A stretch of 64,000 bases of DNA from Halosimplex aquaticum. Its GTDB lineage: Archaea; Halobacteriota; Halobacteria; Halobacteriales; Haloarculaceae. Below are positions 931-55,263 of this stretch, piece after piece (position 1 is the stretch's first letter; every line of letters begins with the position of its first letter). The notes under the pieces were generated by a model. The model was not told where the DNA came from, did no database searches, and worked only from the letters and a program-made list of their open reading frames with translations. Where the stretch lies: assembly GCF_028747785.1 (NCBI RefSeq), contig NZ_CP118158.1, positions 930,001-994,000 on the forward strand. Direction: 5' to 3'. The translations under genes were made by a program, and so were the position numbers.

Positions 931-1983
931 ATGTCGGACACACCGAAGGAACAAAAATTCCATAGCCTCCTTTACTCGGCTCTCTACCGCTATGTGGAGA
1001 ACAACGATACGAAATTTTCCGATGTCACTATTGAGAAGGACGTTGAAGGCCGGCAGGCAGACATACACCTTGAAAGTAACCTTACAGGGAGTCTCGTCAT
1101 CGAGGTCAAGCGAGACAACATCTCCCCCTACGACAAGGAGGTGATGAAGCAGGCACGCGACTACACCCGAGATATCGGTGCTGACTTCTTCGCCACCTGC
1201 AACAGTAACGACTTCTACCTCTTCAACTACAATGGTGAGTTCGAGCTGCAGAACGTCCCGTACAACTACGCGAACCTCCGGCCAATCAACCTCTCTGACC
1301 CAGATCTCGATGGGTTCGTTCCCCAACTCCTCTCTGGCGTCGATCACCTATATCAACACGGGGAACTTCCCGAACAGGAAAAGAAAGAACAGGTCGTCGG
1401 GCTACTCCGAACGTTCCACTCAACAATTTGGCCGGCCTACAAAGAACTCGCACAGCAGAAGTACAACAGTAACGAGAAGTTCATCAACCTGTTCGACGAC
1501 TGGGTTCGAGAAAACGACTTCACTGGCCTCTCCACTGACGAACAGATAGAAACTGCAGCGAAGCAATATGCGTACCTGCTAACGAACAAGATCCTGTTCT
1601 ACGAGGTTGTCCGAGAACAAACACCGGAACCAATCGAACCGAGTGATGGGAACAAACTCCAATCACTTGTCGGTGTCTCCAAGCTTGATTTCCTTGACGA
1701 GCACATCCGCCGCCAATTCGAAGAGATCATCGAGAAAATCGACTACGAACCCATCTTCCGGAACAGCGACCTGTTCGAACAGTTCCCGCACAACAAGAAG
1801 ACCCTGCAGAATATCCAATCGCTTGCAGAAAACATCGAACAACGTGAAATCTCTGGAATAGACGAAGACCTACTCGGTGACGTATTCGAAGAACTGTACG
1901 TGTTTAGCCCCAATGAATTTCGCCACTGTCTCGTAGCAGGCGACCAACCGGGGGTATATGAACCCTCAGCAAGGGCTAATTGA
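931..1983 (+). pseudogene. Type IIG restriction-methyltransferase, N-terminal fragment (split by IS)
   Basis: First piece of a restriction-modification fusion enzyme of the Eco57I class. Genuine sequence runs to codon TAC at 1897-1899, about 323 residues, and the frame then reads into the insertion sequence and stops at 1983. A PD-(D/E)xK-like nuclease signature is visible: D44 in RQADIHLE and E58-x-K60 in VIEVKRD. The reading frame continues as GDVFEELY and rejoins after the insertion as YEELIPESERKKLGQYYTP, the usual linker before methylase motif I. The uninterrupted protein would have about 980 residues. The insertion separates nuclease from methylase, so the enzyme should be inactive unless the element excises precisely. 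Confidence 0.85.
1896..1900 (+). repeat. Left target-site duplication of the insertion sequence
   Basis: GTACG here is repeated at 3476-3480 on the other side of the element. If the terminal G is counted as part of the element's inverted repeat, the duplication is the four bases GTAC. Removing the element and one copy restores the methylase reading frame exactly. Confidence 0.7.
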
Positions 1984-1992
1984 ACTTCTCCA

Positions 1993-2020
1993 GGGATGGT
2001 CTCCGCTCGGAGACCATCCC
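1993..2020. repeat. Perfect 13-bp hairpin upstream of the transposase
   Basis: GGGATGGTCTCCG at 1993-2005 and its exact reverse complement at 2008-2020, separated by CT. It lies 27 bases before the transposase start, where a hairpin could block read-through from the interrupted host gene. A second stem (GCTGAGGT at 2041-2048 with ACCTCAGC at 2069-2076) covers the start codon. Confidence 0.85.
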
Positions 2021-2046
2021 GGTGACCCTGCTGAGGGACCGCTGAG

Positions 2047-3471
2047 GTGGTCATAGTGGATCGAGATGACCTCAGCAAAGACGAACTTCTCTCGCGGTTT
2101 CTCCAGATGGAAGAACGAATCAACGATCTTGAGGAGAAGCTTCAGGAGAAAGACGAACGGATCGAAGAACTCGAAACACGGCTTCGCAAATACGAGAATC
2201 CACATACACCACCGAGTAAGCGACGGTCGGGGACTGACGAGTCCCCGACCTCGCAAGATGACGAAGACGACGATGTCAGAACTGACGGCGGCACTCCCGG
2301 ACGAAAAGACGGTCACGAGCCAGAGTGGCGCTCTACCGCTGATCTGGACGAAGAAGTTGAGGTCACCCGTGACTGCTGTCCAGAGTGTGGCCAACACTTC
2401 GACGAGTCGGTGGGCGTCAGCCCCCGACTCGTCGAGAAGATACCAGATCCACAACCACCAGAACTCACGCAGTACAACCGCCACTGCTACCGATGCGACT
2501 CCTGTGGAACCGAGACAGTCGCTACACACCCCGACTGCCCCGATGAGGGGCAGTTCGGGGTGAACGTTATCGCCCAATCAGCACTATCGCGGTACGATTA
2601 CCGCCTTCCCTATCGGAAGATTGCAGACCGTTTCGAGCAACTACACGGACTGGAGTTGTCAGGTGCGACTGCGTGGCACGCGACCGAGCGCGCTGCGCGC
2701 GCCGGTCGCTGTGAATACGAACAGATCCGTCGCCAGATCCAGCAAGCCGACGTTGTCCACATCGATGAAACAGGCATCAAGCGAGATGGTGAGCAAGCAT
2801 GGATCTGGACGTTCACCACCGAGAACCACACGCTCTACGCGGTTAGAGAGAGTCGTGGAAGCGATGTTCCCGCGGAAGTCCTCGGCGAGGACTTCGCGGG
2901 AACGGTCATTTGTGATGGGTGGACAGCCTATCCAGCCTTCAGCGACAATCTCCAGCGGTGTTGGGCTCATATTTTGCGAGAGGCTGAAGATGCCGCTGAG
3001 AAGCAACCGGAAGGCGAACCGATCTACGACTCTCTCAAACAGTTGTACGTCGCTCTCCAGACCCGGCTGGAGAGCGACTTGACCATTCGTGAGCGAGCAG
3101 AGCTCCAGCGTGTGGCGCGGAGAGAGCTTGAATCACTGATTGAACGGTCAGTTCCCGACGGACCAGTGGCAACACTACTCGGAAAGATCGAAGGTGGCCT
3201 CGACCACTGGCTCACCTTCGTCGGTGAGCCAGCGGTCTCTCCGACGAACAATGCCGCCGAAAACGCGCTTCGTGAGCCGGTGGTTCTCCGGAAACTGATC
3301 GGAACGCTCCGCAATGACCGCGGGATGTTCGTTCATGAGACGGTGCTGTCCCTGCTGGCGACATGGCGCCAGCAGGGACGCAATCCATACGACGAGCTCA
3401 AGCGAGTCTCCCGGAACAACGAGATGATTTCACGAGATCAGGCTGTGCCGGCCGTTGAGTCCTCGGGGTAA
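2047..3471 (+). CDS. IS66-family DDE transposase
   Basis: Catalyses cut-and-paste movement of the element. The 474 residues show an N-terminal coiled-coil (about 8-50), an acidic linker, two zinc-binding pairs (CPEC at 111-114 and CDSC at 150-153) and an RNase H-like core. The DDE triad fits D240 in HIDETGIKRDG, D290 in ICDGWTAYP and E405 in TNNAAENALR, as in IS66 TnpC proteins. The start is GTG at 2047; GTG at 2056 is an alternative. The stop at 3469-3471 lies within the right terminal repeat. The coding sequence holds at least eight strong stem-loops spaced about 130-190 bases apart, which is not expected from the protein alone. Confidence 0.93.
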   Translation: MVIVDRDDLSKDELLSRFLQMEERINDLEEKLQEKDERIEELETRLRKYENPHTPPSKRRSGTDESPTSQDDEDDDVRTDGGTPGRKDGHEPEWRSTADLDEEVEVTRDCCPECGQHFDESVGVSPRLVEKIPDPQPPELTQYNRHCYRCDSCGTETVATHPDCPDEGQFGVNVIAQSALSRYDYRLPYRKIADRFEQLHGLELSGATAWHATERAARAGRCEYEQIRRQIQQADVVHIDETGIKRDGEQAWIWTFTTENHTLYAVRESRGSDVPAEVLGEDFAGTVICDGWTAYPAFSDNLQRCWAHILREAEDAAEKQPEGEPIYDSLKQLYVALQTRLESDLTIRERAELQRVARRELESLIERSVPDGPVATLLGKIEGGLDHWLTFVGEPAVSPTNNAAENALREPVVLRKLIGTLRNDRGMFVHETVLSLLATWRQQGRNPYDELKRVSRNNEMISRDQAVPAVESSG

Positions 3472-3475
3472 ACAC

Positions 3476-3480
3476 GTACG
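3476..3480 (+). repeat. Right target-site duplication of the insertion sequence
   Basis: GTACG, matching 1896-1900. It is followed directly by GAAGAACTC, which continues the methylase gene. Confidence 0.7.
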
Positions 3481-5447
3481 AAGAACTCATCCCTGAAAGC
3501 GAACGGAAGAAACTCGGTCAATACTACACTCCGCCAACGATCGCTGACGCCGTTACAGAATGGGTGCTTGACGCACAAATAGACGACGGGCTTCCTGAAA
3601 TCCTTGATCCTGCCAGCGGTAGCGGAACCTTCCCAGTGGAAGTCTACAGCGACCTACAACGCGACTATACGAACGCCACACACCAAGACATCCTTGATTC
3701 AATCACTACTATTGACATAAACAAGTTCCCACTTCATCTGACTGCCCTGAACTTAGCAAGTCAGAACATCGAAGAGGAAATCGACACGCTGCACGCGTAT
3801 CATGCGTCGTTCTTCGATATCGAACCAGACTCAATGATGCTGTCATCCGCGCGGCTGGATAACCGAGACACCGGAGAAGTCGGGTACTTTGACGGGGTTG
3901 TCGGGAACCCACCGTACATCCGAAACCGCGACATCCCAGATAAGGACGCATTCAGAGCACACCTCTCACGATTCGGCCCGGAGAACTCCTCACCCTATCT
4001 TGACGGGTCAAAGAAGTTCAGCAAGAAAACCGACGCGTACGTGTACTTCGTCACGCACGCCACGCAGTTCCTCAGAGACGGTGGACGACTCGGGTTCGTT
4101 ATCCCGCCGAAGTGGTTGAGCGTCCGGTACGGAATGGACTTCCAACAGTTCCTTTTCGACCATTACCGAATCCACGCTGTTGTCACGTTCGCAGAACGAG
4201 CGTTCGAAGACGCGTTCGTAGATACGTGTCTCCTCCTCATCGAACGGTGTGAAGACGAGGAAATGCGGCGTGAGACGACTACGCGATTCATCCGCGTCCA
4301 AGATGAGATGGAGCCTGTTGACCTGTACGATACCGTGACGTACGGGATGACACTCGAACAGGAGCCGATTGACGTTCGGACACGCCCAAACTACCGCTCT
4401 GTCGGAGTCCGCCAAGCATACCTAGAGGACACCGGACCAAAGAAAATCGGATACTACCTCAATGCCCCGTTGAAGCTCATCAACCTAATCGAACGCGATG
4501 ATTTCGTTCCGATCAGCGAGTTCGTTGATGTCTCATACGGCCAGAAAACCGGTGCAAACAAGTGGTTCTTGCTTGATCAAGAGGAAGCCCACCGTCGTGG
4601 TATCGAGGACCGGTTCCTCAGCCCGGTCGTCAAGAGCATCAAAGGTATGGACTCGGAAGTCTTCGATACCGATGATTCAGACAAGTACATTATTGACGTA
4701 CACGACTACGTGGAGGAAGTCAAGCAGGAGACCAGCGAATTCGGTGAGGATACGCGGTTAGAAGAAGATGTGAAGGACGCATTGAAGCGTGATGGGTACA
4801 CTGGGCTGTTACAGTACATTAACGAGGGCGAGAACGAAGGTGAGCATGAAGGCACCACATGTGCGTCCCGCCCAGTGTGGTTCGATCTTGGAGAACAAGT
4901 TGCTCCGGAACTCTTCCATCCACGGTTCTTCAAATGGAGGCTATTCACTGTTGTGAACCGTGCGGAAGCGCTCACCACGGACGCTGTACAGTGCGTTCAG
5001 GTGAAACCCGAGTACGACTCAAAAGTCGTGACCGGAATCATGAACTCCAGCCTGTACGCTGCAGCTGTCGAGTGCTGGGGCCGTGTTGAGGGGAACGGTG
5101 TGCTACAGTTAATGACGTATGAAACGAAGAGCATCCCGGTGCCGGACATCCGGAAGTTCGATGACGAAGCCTGCGATGCGATCCGGGAAGCAACGAACGC
5201 ATTACTGGCAGGTGAAGAAGATGCGGAGAAGAGACTTAATGAGGCAGTGCTTGATGCAGTTGGGGTTGAAGGAATCACAGCGGACGAACTCGAAGACATG
5301 CGGCAGGTGATGACGCATCAACGGTTGGAAGGCGAGTTCGAATCTGAGGTAATGCTTCGAAATCTTGACGCTGCAACGGAATGGTCCGCAGAGTACTTCG
5401 GTGACGACTCCGATGATGGCCCCAGCACGTTAGACGACTTCTCATAG
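3477..5447 (+). pseudogene. Type IIG restriction-methyltransferase, methylase and specificity fragment
   Basis: Second piece of the split enzyme, in frame with the first if the element and one GTACG copy are removed. Methylase motif I is DPASGSGTF (coded at 3606-3632) and the catalytic motif IV is NPPY (3906-3917), which marks an N6-adenine methyltransferase. The remainder holds the target-recognition region, with the stretches ISEFVDVSYGQKTGANKWF and LNAPLKLINLI typical of Eco57I-like enzymes. An in-frame GTG at 3564 could restart translation, but the product would begin just before motif I and lack the nuclease. About 655 residues remain. Confidence 0.85.
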
Positions 5448-32482: not shown

Positions 32483-34654
32483 ATGAGTCTCTCCGACGCC
32501 GACCGCGAGCTCGTGGTCGAGGAACTGGGGCGGGAGCCGACCCGGGCCGAGGCCGCGCTCTTCGAGAACCTCTGGAGCGAGCACTGCGCGTATCGCTCCT
32601 CGTGGCCGCTGCTGAGCGCGTTCGACAGCGAGGGCGACCAGGTCGTCGTCGGTCCCGGCGACGACGCCGCGGTGGTCTCCATTCCGTCCGCTGGCGCGGA
32701 CGCGGACGACGACACCTACGTCACGCTCGGGATCGAGAGCCACAACCACCCCTCGTTCGTCGACCCGTTCGACGGCGCGGCGACGGGCGTCGGCGGCATC
32801 GTCCGAGACACGCTCTCGATGGGCGCCTACCCCATCGCGCTCGCCGACTCGCTGTACTTCGGCGACTTCGACCGCGAGCACTCCCGCTACCTCTTCGAGG
32901 GCGTCGTCGAGGGCATCTCCCACTACGGCAACTGCATCGGCGTCCCGACGGTCGCGGGATCGACCGCCTTCCACGACGACTACGAGGGCAACCCGCTCGT
33001 CAACGTCGCCTGCGTCGGCCTGATCGACGACCCCGACCGTCTGGTCACCGCGGTCGCGAAAGAGCCCGGTAACAAGCTACTGCTCGTCGGCAACTCCACG
33101 GGTCGCGACGGGCTTGGTGGCGCGTCCTTCGCGAGCGAGGACCTCGCCGAGGACGCCGAGACCGAGGACCGGCCGGCGGTCCAGGTCGGCGACCCCTACA
33201 CGGAGAAGCTGCTCATCGAGGCGAACGAACAGCTGATCGACGAGGGCCTGATCGAGTCCGCGCGGGACCTCGGCGCCGCGGGACTGGGCGGCGCGGCCTC
33301 GGAGATGGTCGCGAAGGGCGGCCTCGGTGCGAACATCGAACTGACGAACGTCCACGAGCGCGAGCCGAACATGAACGCGATGGAGTACCTGCTCGCCGAG
33401 AGCCAGGAGCGGATGTGCTACGAGGTCCGCCCGGAGAACGTCGAGCGCGTACACGAGATCGCCGACCGCTACGACCTCGGGTCGTCAGTCATCGGCGAGG
33501 TGACCGACGGCAACTTCGTCTGCACCTTCGACGGCGAGGTCGTCGTCGACGCGTCCGCGGAGTTCCTCGGCGACGGCGCGCCGTACAACGACCTGCCCGC
33601 CGAGGAACCGGCCGAACAGGAGCGGGATCTGCCCGAGGGCGTCGACCTCGCGGAGGCGTTCGAGGCGGTCGTCGGCAGCCCGAACACCGCCTCGAAGGAG
33701 TGGGTCTACCGCCAGTACGACCACGAGGTACAGGTCAGGACCGCGATGGCCCCGGGCGACGACGCGGCCCTGATGGCCATCCGAGAAGCGGAGACGGGCC
33801 TCGCCTTCTCGTCCGGTGCGGACCCCAACTGGACCGACGCGGCGCCGTACGAGGGCGCCCGCGCCGTCGCGCTGGAGAACGCGACGAACGTCGCGGCGAA
33901 GGGCGCCCGGCCGCACGCGGCGGTCAACTGCCTCAACGGCGGTAACCCCGAGAAGCCCGACGTGTACGGCGGGTTCAAGGGTATCGTCGACGGTCTCGCG
34001 GAGATGTGCTCGACGCTCGACGTGCCCGTCGTCGGCGGGAACGTCTCGCTGTACAACGACTCCGCGAGCGGACCGATCCCGCCGACGCCGACGCTCGCGC
34101 TGGTCGGCGTCAAGGACGGTTACGAGGCGCCGCCCGCGGCCCTGCAGGGCGAGGGCGAACTCCTGCTCGTCGGTGCGCGTTCGCTGGAGGGCGACGCCGA
34201 GGCCCGTCTCGGCGGGTCGGAGTACCTCGCGCAGTTCGGCGGCACGGACCGGTTCCCCGAGTCGCTGGCCAACCCCGACGCGTTCGTCGACACGCTGGCC
34301 GACGTGGCGAACGAGGAGTCGACGCTCGCCACTCACGACGTGAGCCACGGCGGGCTCGCGGTGACGCTCGCGGAGATGGTGACCGACGGGGCCGGCGCGA
34401 GCGTCGACCTCGACGCGCCGGCGAAGGGCTCGCCCGAGGCGCTCCTGTTCGGCGAGCAGGCCGGTCGCGTCGTGATCGAGACGACCGACCCGCGGAGCGT
34501 CCGCGAGGCCTTCGACAGCGTCACCCCGGTGTACGTCCTCGGCGACGCGGACGACTCGGGAACGCTCGACGTGGGGCTCGACGACGGGTCGCTCTCCTAC
34601 GACGCCGCCGAGATCGCCGACCTGCGCGACGTGATCGAACGAGAACTGGACTGA
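32483..34654 (+). CDS. purL: Phosphoribosylformylglycinamidine synthase subunit PurL
   Basis: 723 residues, the small-form PurL that works with PurS and PurQ in step four of purine synthesis, using ATP and ammonia. Recognisable parts are LWSEHCAYRSSWPLLSAF near the start, the ATP and substrate region GIESHNHPSFVDPFDGAATGVGGIVRDTLSMGA, NGGNPEKPDVYGGFKGIVDGLAEMCSTLDVPVVGGNVSLYN and THDVSHGGLAVTLAEM. Length is normal for archaeal PurL. It stands alone on its strand with purS and purQ elsewhere. Confidence 0.97.
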   Translation: MSLSDADRELVVEELGREPTRAEAALFENLWSEHCAYRSSWPLLSAFDSEGDQVVVGPGDDAAVVSIPSAGADADDDTYVTLGIESHNHPSFVDPFDGAATGVGGIVRDTLSMGAYPIALADSLYFGDFDREHSRYLFEGVVEGISHYGNCIGVPTVAGSTAFHDDYEGNPLVNVACVGLIDDPDRLVTAVAKEPGNKLLLVGNSTGRDGLGGASFASEDLAEDAETEDRPAVQVGDPYTEKLLIEANEQLIDEGLIESARDLGAAGLGGAASEMVAKGGLGANIELTNVHEREPNMNAMEYLLAESQERMCYEVRPENVERVHEIADRYDLGSSVIGEVTDGNFVCTFDGEVVVDASAEFLGDGAPYNDLPAEEPAEQERDLPEGVDLAEAFEAVVGSPNTASKEWVYRQYDHEVQVRTAMAPGDDAALMAIREAETGLAFSSGADPNWTDAAPYEGARAVALENATNVAAKGARPHAAVNCLNGGNPEKPDVYGGFKGIVDGLAEMCSTLDVPVVGGNVSLYNDSASGPIPPTPTLALVGVKDGYEAPPAALQGEGELLLVGARSLEGDAEARLGGSEYLAQFGGTDRFPESLANPDAFVDTLADVANEESTLATHDVSHGGLAVTLAEMVTDGAGASVDLDAPAKGSPEALLFGEQAGRVVIETTDPRSVREAFDSVTPVYVLGDADDSGTLDVGLDDGSLSYDAAEIADLRDVIERELD

Positions 34655-55133: not shown

Positions 55134-55263
55134 GTACTGAGCATCCGCCGAGCGAAGCGAGGCGGTTCACCGGAATCGAGCGAAGCGAGATCTCGGCTTT
55201 TTCACCCATATTTTTGGCTCGGGGTCGCGAGCAACGCGAGCGACCCTCGAGCGAAAAAGATGG
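55134..55263. repeat. Structured GAGCGAAGCGAG-rich element
   Basis: Contains two GAGCGAAGCGAG copies, then CTTTTTCACCC, and a long imperfect stem: GGGTCGC pairs with GCGACCC (about 55216-55245) and the outer CTTTTT with AAAAAG. I recall similar elements between genes in other haloarchaea. It lies between the small membrane protein and phoU. Confidence 0.5.

Follow-up and report, generated by a model that had tools for sequence, protein, structure and literature searches.

Why should the transposase gene of an insertion sequence carry stable stem-loops at even intervals along its protein-coding sequence? The question is raised by a 64-kb stretch of Halosimplex aquaticum DNA (all of it referred to here as the window), in which the original prediction had pointed out nine nearly perfect inverted repeats running through an IS66-type gene. 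The element that contains them is complete, and its parts are as follows.

Positions 1888 to 1895, no strand assigned: left target duplication GAAGAACT, from end comparison of copies.
Positions 1896 to 3479, plus strand: complete ISH10-type IS66 insertion sequence of 1584 bp (PF03050), with boundaries and duplications established in all seven genome copies.
Positions 1896 to 1911, plus strand: left terminal inverted repeat, GTACGTGTTTAGCCCC.
Positions 2047 to 3471, plus strand: transposase coding sequence (CDS), 474 aa, with GTG as the listed start and an alternative GTG possible 9 nt downstream.
Positions 3465 to 3479, minus strand: right terminal inverted repeat, GGGGTAAACACGTAC as read on the plus strand.
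Positions 3480 to 3487, no strand assigned: right target duplication GAAGAACT, from end comparison of copies.

The terminal inverted repeats share GTACGTGTTTA, which is found at either end of the ISH10-type element. Its protein matches PF03050 (DDE_Tnp_IS66; E 2.8e-43, 148.8 bits against a cut-off of 23.1), and is therefore not the Y1 (HUH) transposase of IS200/IS605; over its full length it shares 90.3% protein identity with the annotated ISH10 of Halobacterium salinarum. An 8-bp target duplication is typical of the ISH10 group of the IS66 family, and it is intact in 7 of 7 ISH10 copies of the 5.16-Mb genome. These seven full copies comprise three nucleotide sequences and encode proteins that are 100% identical over residues 2-474; given this similarity and the intact target duplications, the element moved recently. 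The frame to the left of the element (931-1895) has a weak HSDR_N_2 match below the family cut-off, and the frame to its right (3480-5447) matches Eco57I and N6_Mtase, which suggests that the insertion probably split a single restriction-modification gene.

We scored hairpins by counting Watson-Crick pairs, with a deduction of 2 for a mismatch or a one-base bulge and with loops of 3 to 8 nt. Scanning and folding both placed all nine stem-loops where they had been predicted, eight of them inside the coding sequence, as claimed, and stem-loop 1 in the non-coding leader instead:

Positions 1963 to 2037, plus strand: outer leader stem enclosing stem-loop 1, with arms at 1963-1975 and 2026-2037.
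Positions 1993 to 2020, plus strand: stem-loop 1, 12 pairs and a 4-nt loop, in the non-coding leader.
Positions 2220 to 2254, plus strand: stem-loop 2, 15 pairs, with no single fixed alignment position among relatives.
Positions 2399 to 2435, plus strand: stem-loop 3, 16 pairs, one bulge.
Positions 2527 to 2562, plus strand: stem-loop 4, 15 pairs, one bulge.
Positions 2677 to 2713, plus strand: stem-loop 5, 16 pairs, two bulges.
Positions 2866 to 2903, plus strand: stem-loop 6, 17 pairs, one bulge.
Positions 3049 to 3078, plus strand: stem-loop 7, 12 pairs.
Positions 3202 to 3237, plus strand: stem-loop 8, 14 pairs, one mismatch.
Positions 3344 to 3382, plus strand: stem-loop 9, 16 pairs.

The array thus spans the element from its leader to 98 nt short of its right end. 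Across the 64 kb of the window, 53 hairpins score at least 9 and 11 score at least 12, the latter being the nine ISH10 stems and two elsewhere, one outside the insertion sequence at 33659-33696 (score 12) and the other a strong hairpin at 55206-55263 (score 13, 23 pairs) that is perhaps terminator-like or some other non-coding structure. The frames 931-1895 and 3480-5447 contain no hairpin scoring 9 or more, in line with the earlier remark that the flanking methylase gene has nothing comparable. The transposase CDS holds eight hairpins scoring at least 12, whereas 1000 synonymous shuffles, with the protein and the codon usage preserved, average 0.047 and never exceed 2; chance and base composition are thereby ruled out as the source of the stems. 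Folded as single-stranded DNA, the nine stems have energies between −14.1 and −20.5 kcal/mol and z values between −3.9 and −7.1, with the stem at 2677-2713 matched or beaten by 2 of 200 shuffles and the other eight by none. The nine stems have no DNA motif of more than 8 bases in common, the longest shared run being 8 bases. The same genome also contains a decayed ISH10-type copy with stops (contig C2, about 175839-177252), in which nine hairpins scoring at least 11 are still found.

A scan of the genome collection for ISH10 relatives yielded 77 loci (from the best 80 of 85 matches), and a separate search through 146 genomes from the family of the host gave matches in 28, the present genome included; a scan of viral_contigs gave no relative. 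The 55 full-length open frames represent 38 distinct CDS, of which 37 were aligned, one more copy of this element being omitted. Stems 3-9 hold their positions in the 37 relatives and are nearly invariant; neither of the outcomes named beforehand as refuting, as many stems in shuffled sequences or relatives without them, was observed. Stem 2 does not share this constancy and was excluded from the third-position means. Identity at fourfold third positions is 97.4% over the 42 sites within stems and 66.3% over the 148 beyond them; at twofold sites it is 97.8% within (25 sites) and 79.6% beyond (122). These frozen silent sites, together with the shuffles, strongly support the original prediction that synonymous positions are chosen to make stems. 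In stem 7, the pair 3053-3074 is C-G in 23 of 37 sequences and G-C in the other 14, and the stem 6 pairs that join two fourfold silent positions are nearly fixed (2868-2901 in 34/37, 2871-2898 in 35/37).

Among 37 upstream regions, in which the window's element is counted twice, stem 1 is present in 28, in covarying versions whose loops vary freely among relatives; two further regions have a different hairpin at this site and seven have none, in some cases for want of a leader or because the start is located elsewhere. Read by eye, the arms of the outer leader stem change in step across relatives, and an automatic consensus fold of the leader, on a poor alignment, returned no pairs. In read-through protection of the IS10/IS50 type, an inverted repeat in the leader has its upstream arm before the transcription start; by analogy, the two-tier stem at 1963-2037 may possibly be such a shield.

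Several ISH10 loci are flanked by further hairpin-dense frames that resemble other transposases. We therefore surveyed seven haloarchaeal plasmid regions, each an annotated stretch of 50 kb, at a threshold score of at least 11, with CDS (transposase-labelled ones, and others of about 600 nt or more) taken by hand from the annotation tables. The 43 distinct transposase-labelled CDS (48.3 kb) contain 205 hairpins where synonymous shuffling predicts 2.5; the 131 other CDS of the same stretches (157.7 kb) contain 8 against 2.9 expected, and none of them has three or more. Perfect stems of at least 11 pairs number 101 in the former set and 0 in the latter. The 43 CDS cover IS66, IS4, IS5, ISH3, IS701, IS630, ISH6, IS1595, IS6, TnpB, and unnamed transposases, and 39 of them have at least one hairpin, the exceptions being one TnpB, two IS6, and an IS4 frame of 744 nt. 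Pfam placed each of the five unnamed transposases that were searched in a DDE family; ISH6 and ISH3 gave weak or no matches. In the present genome, the DDE_Tnp_1 loci include nine distinct frames with 4-6 hairpins each, against 0.05-0.25 expected. Among frames taken as the longest open one over a locus centre, some of which may be the wrong frame or gene (likely so at several short Y1 loci), IS6 arrays are weak (18 hairpins in 20 frames, 0.1 expected) and arrays are absent from TnpB (3 in 20, 0.35 expected) and from Y1 (IS200) transposase loci (1 in 20, 0.25 expected). The 50 kb of halovirus phiCh1 contain no hairpin scoring 11 or more. Hairpin arrays are therefore a general feature of haloarchaeal DDE transposase genes. 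They are not peculiar to the window's single element, as the relatives and the other transposase families show; nor are they a trait of genes on these replicons generally, which the 131 other CDS rule out, or of all haloarchaeal mobile DNA, which phiCh1 and the TnpB and Y1 genes rule out. The genome itself is rich in insertion sequences. Its 49 DDE_Tnp_1 matches include two groups of IS5-type copies, one of 11 and one of 19, with equal scores within each group, whereas 9 different scores occur among its 10 TnpB matches.

As far as tested, the arrays are confined to haloarchaea. With frames again taken as the longest over the locus centre, and hence possibly wrong in some cases, five haloarchaeal IS66 frames contain 35 hairpins (0.3 expected) and seven haloarchaeal DDE_Tnp_1 frames contain 33 (0.07 expected), whereas 21 IS66 frames (0.3 expected) and 21 DDE_Tnp_1 frames (0.2 expected) from the same phylum outside haloarchaea, most with lower G+C than haloarchaeal genes, contain none. 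A usable frame was lacking at 4 of 30 loci in the run on IS66 and the present genome's DDE_Tnp_1 and at 1 of 29 in the DDE_Tnp_1 phylum run. At a looser score of 9, the non-haloarchaeal sets show 3 hairpins for IS66 (1.9 expected) and 6 for DDE_Tnp_1 (2.1 expected). Seven single controls also have 0 hairpins, namely the ISH3 and IS1 of Methanomethylovorans, an Aeromonas IS4, the IS66 of Alteromonas and of Acidiphilium (the latter with 65% G+C), and two Salinibacter transposases. The last two, an IS1 and one short transposase, come from plasmids of the sole salt-in bacterium examined and are too few to decide on salt. An array as a general IS66 or DDE_Tnp_1 trait is thus ruled out for the phylum outside haloarchaea, with bacteria represented by three IS66/IS4 genes only. 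Some non-haloarchaeal IS66 elements are multi-copy (e.g., 11 in one genome) and yet have no arrays.

To place the ISH10 result in a broader perspective, we compared five transposase sets: ISH8/IS4 (25 sequences), two ISH3 groups (13 and 13), IS5 (10), and IS66 (37). In each of them, most sequences have stems at matching alignment positions. With stems defined as those present in 60% or more of the sequences, conservation of fourfold third positions inside and outside stems is (i) 0.942 and 0.743 in ISH8/IS4; (ii) 0.972 and 0.689, and 0.948 and 0.656, in the two ISH3 groups; (iii) 0.965 and 0.808 in IS5; and (iv) about 0.975 and 0.664 in IS66. Across the five sets, 35 stem pairs have an alternative Watson-Crick pair, indicating that pairing as such is kept, and the arrays are thus under purifying selection. 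The majority of stem pairs link a silent position with a coding position. Distant subfamilies, at 21-44% protein identity, have no more than one or two stem places in common per comparison, and in none of the five comparisons does this exceed chance at 0.05 (smallest value 0.062); closer subfamilies, at 54% and 82% identity, have four coinciding places each (0.016 and 0.020). Because stem places mostly differ between distant subfamilies, the sequences suggest that arrays were probably built or rebuilt several times. Their spacing is even: in 32 genes, many of them homologous, the mean coefficient of variation is 0.26 compared to 0.60 for random placement, with 32 of 32 under the random mean. 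The same holds for 18 representatives, three of which still have one common spacing (0.29 compared to 0.57; 18 of 18 under the random mean, 7 of 18 individually below 0.05).

Which molecule is selected can be approached through the mispairs that the stems tolerate. Since G-U would keep a selected mRNA fold, G-U should be tolerated on the sense strand. In the five sets, however, transitions that make G-U (66 against 177.5 expected from rates outside stems) are depleted much like those that make A-C (50 against 163.4), and their split agrees with expectation (p 0.31). By mean frequency, variants that make G-U stand to those that make A-C in a ratio of 1.18 over the five sets (singly 0.58, 0.85, 1.12, 1.15, and 2.64), compared to 8.57 for SRP RNA and 7.28 for RNase P RNA as controls (30 haloarchaeal genomes each). 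The outlier at 2.64 is the ISH3A set (p 0.07), and the SRP control is less extreme when judged by polymorphic columns (15 of 31.2 for G-U, 7 of 23.4 for A-C). Pair counts, whose cells are not independent, show a mild G-U excess over all pairs of intact stems (G-U 211, A-C 123, other 360); for interior pairs only, they are 112, 107, and 232, compared to 189, 23, and 29 in SRP helices. Pairing is kept through two-sided changes, as expected of a sense-transcript RNA, but G-U is tolerated hardly better than A-C. On balance, selection seems to act alike on both strands, and from this near-equal removal we infer that a DNA hairpin, or transcripts of both strands, is selected and not an mRNA fold alone.

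We tentatively favor, without calling it probable, the reading that the arrays are DNA hairpins that hinder homology-driven transactions, with slowed translation as a possible by-product. How they would do so is the least certain part of this scheme: short DNA hairpins would be stable in the salt-rich haloarchaeal cytoplasm, and with one hairpin every ∼100-300 nt, any copy of the element in single-stranded form would be left with only short unpaired stretches, which would impede RadA pairing of identical copies and hence ectopic recombination. Alternatively, when a chromosome that has the element recombines with one that lacks it, the hairpins could make it harder to remove the element as a looped-out single strand. 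Hairpins in the mRNA, possibly slowing translation too, would then be a tolerated or useful by-product. GC-rich hairpin centres should slow cruciform extrusion from duplex DNA, so single-stranded DNA would be needed. The broader proposal, that unrelated haloarchaeal DDE transposons each built a strand-symmetric hairpin array as DNA-level armour against recombination or loop removal, enabled by intracellular salt, is doubtful. TnpB and IS200 transposases move or act via single-stranded DNA, or not at all. In favor of the DNA reading we count the lack of arrays in TnpB and IS200 and the multi-copy state of array-bearing elements here (seven ISH10; IS5-type groups of 11 and 19), as opposed to the differing scores of TnpB, as well as the silent-site selection, generality, host restriction, repeated origin, strand symmetry, and even spacing. 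Against it stand IS6, whose members are multi-copy DDE elements and yet have weak arrays, the multi-copy non-haloarchaeal IS66 without arrays, the ISH3A ratio of 2.64, the G-U excess over all pairs, and the less extreme SRP columns. The original prediction had also suggested cruciforms or single-stranded DNA hairpins read by the transposase; a role at the level of DNA or of both strands fits our data, but the element's own transposase is unlikely to be the reader of these hairpins, because unrelated transposases have arrays and the stems share little sequence (at most 8 bases).

The missing translation products of array-bearing genes are better explained by a brake on translation than by the DNA reading. 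In such a brake, mRNA stems would slow or stall ribosomes, keep the transposase scarce, and limit harm to the host; the original prediction had likewise listed mRNA folding that limits translation. The brake fits the stability of the isolated stems folded as RNA (−22.8 to −32.3 kcal/mol) and a study of H. salinarum (PMC10134880) in which transposase mRNAs are abundant but no more than 4 of 33 proteins of the mobilome could be detected, three of them TnpB, whose genes lack arrays, and in which ribosomes pile up on an ISH3 transcript. Yet the fourth detected protein comes from an ISH2 element, that study itself attributes the low mobilome protein to SmAP1 and antisense RNA, and G-U pairs are removed almost as strongly as A-C mismatches, which opposes an mRNA fold alone; as the main function, we consider the brake rather unlikely, though a rival to be taken seriously. 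Strand symmetry and even spacing would also suit stems in sense and antisense RNA that prevent annealing into long double strands or let transcripts meet by their loops, and antisense RNAs of transposases are common: H. salinarum has 58 of them across 32 transposases (PMC6523106), and 21 of about 45 nt, from transposase 5′ ends, are enriched in Haloferax volcanii vesicles (PMC10927574). This role is nevertheless improbable, given that antisense RNA lies on at least 21% of H. salinarum genes (PMC6523106) and the 131 ordinary genes have no arrays, and that loops, at least in stem 1, are free to vary. Even spacing, a common shape with little shared sequence, and the occurrence of arrays in unrelated elements of one host class would also agree with a structure-specific host or element protein that binds the hairpins as such, in DNA or RNA; we know of no protein of this kind and none of our results points to one, which makes such a platform very improbable. 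Finally, template switching could perfect and mend near-palindromes to no benefit. This mutational origin would account for perfect Watson-Crick pairing on both strands, and most pairs, linking silent to coding positions, would be frozen by it; it is hardly probable at all, since ordinary genes of the same regions have no such stems (0 perfect stems of at least 11 pairs in 131 genes), the silent-silent pairs of stem 6 (34/37 and 35/37) would drift, and even spacing is left unexplained. Taken together, the earlier reading of this locus is partly supported.

Hairpins are known from other mobile elements and genomes. The transposase mRNAs of IS10, IS50, and IS200 are protected by leader hairpins, a single stem or a pair of stems located at the ribosome-binding site; these too are inverted repeats that affect transposase output, and ISH10 has a leader stem of its own (1963-2037), but it adds eight evenly spaced stems through the coding sequence, with strand-symmetric pairing. 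RNA virus genomes have large-scale ordered RNA structure, likewise spread through coding sequence by synonymous choice, yet this concerns RNA genomes and folding in which G-U counts, whereas haloarchaeal arrays treat G-U much like a mismatch. IS200/IS605 elements share the presence of DNA hairpins within an insertion sequence, but theirs are subterminal, at the ends, and read by the Y1 transposase, and haloarchaeal Y1 and TnpB genes have no internal arrays. In yeast heteroduplex DNA, palindromes escape loop repair, which offers a model for hairpins that protect an inserted segment, although these are single palindromes in yeast and neither arrays nor archaeal. The available part of PMC8303175 treats processing sites and stem-loops, not arrays in transposase genes, and the full-text literature searched, mostly without subscription papers, gave no report of hairpin arrays in transposase coding sequences. 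The IS10/IS50/IS200 leader hairpins are their nearest known counterpart.

The transposase coding sequences of a whole archaeal class thus bear, besides the protein code, a structural message that escapes standard annotation. Because arrays seem to have evolved repeatedly, and because silent sites in stems are more conserved than the rest of the gene, a strong selective pressure on many unrelated elements appears to act in haloarchaeal cells. That pressure might explain the abundant transposase mRNA and scarce protein in Halobacterium described in PMC10134880, and identifying it would show how transposons and cells that are filled with salt and rich in insertion sequences keep each other in check.
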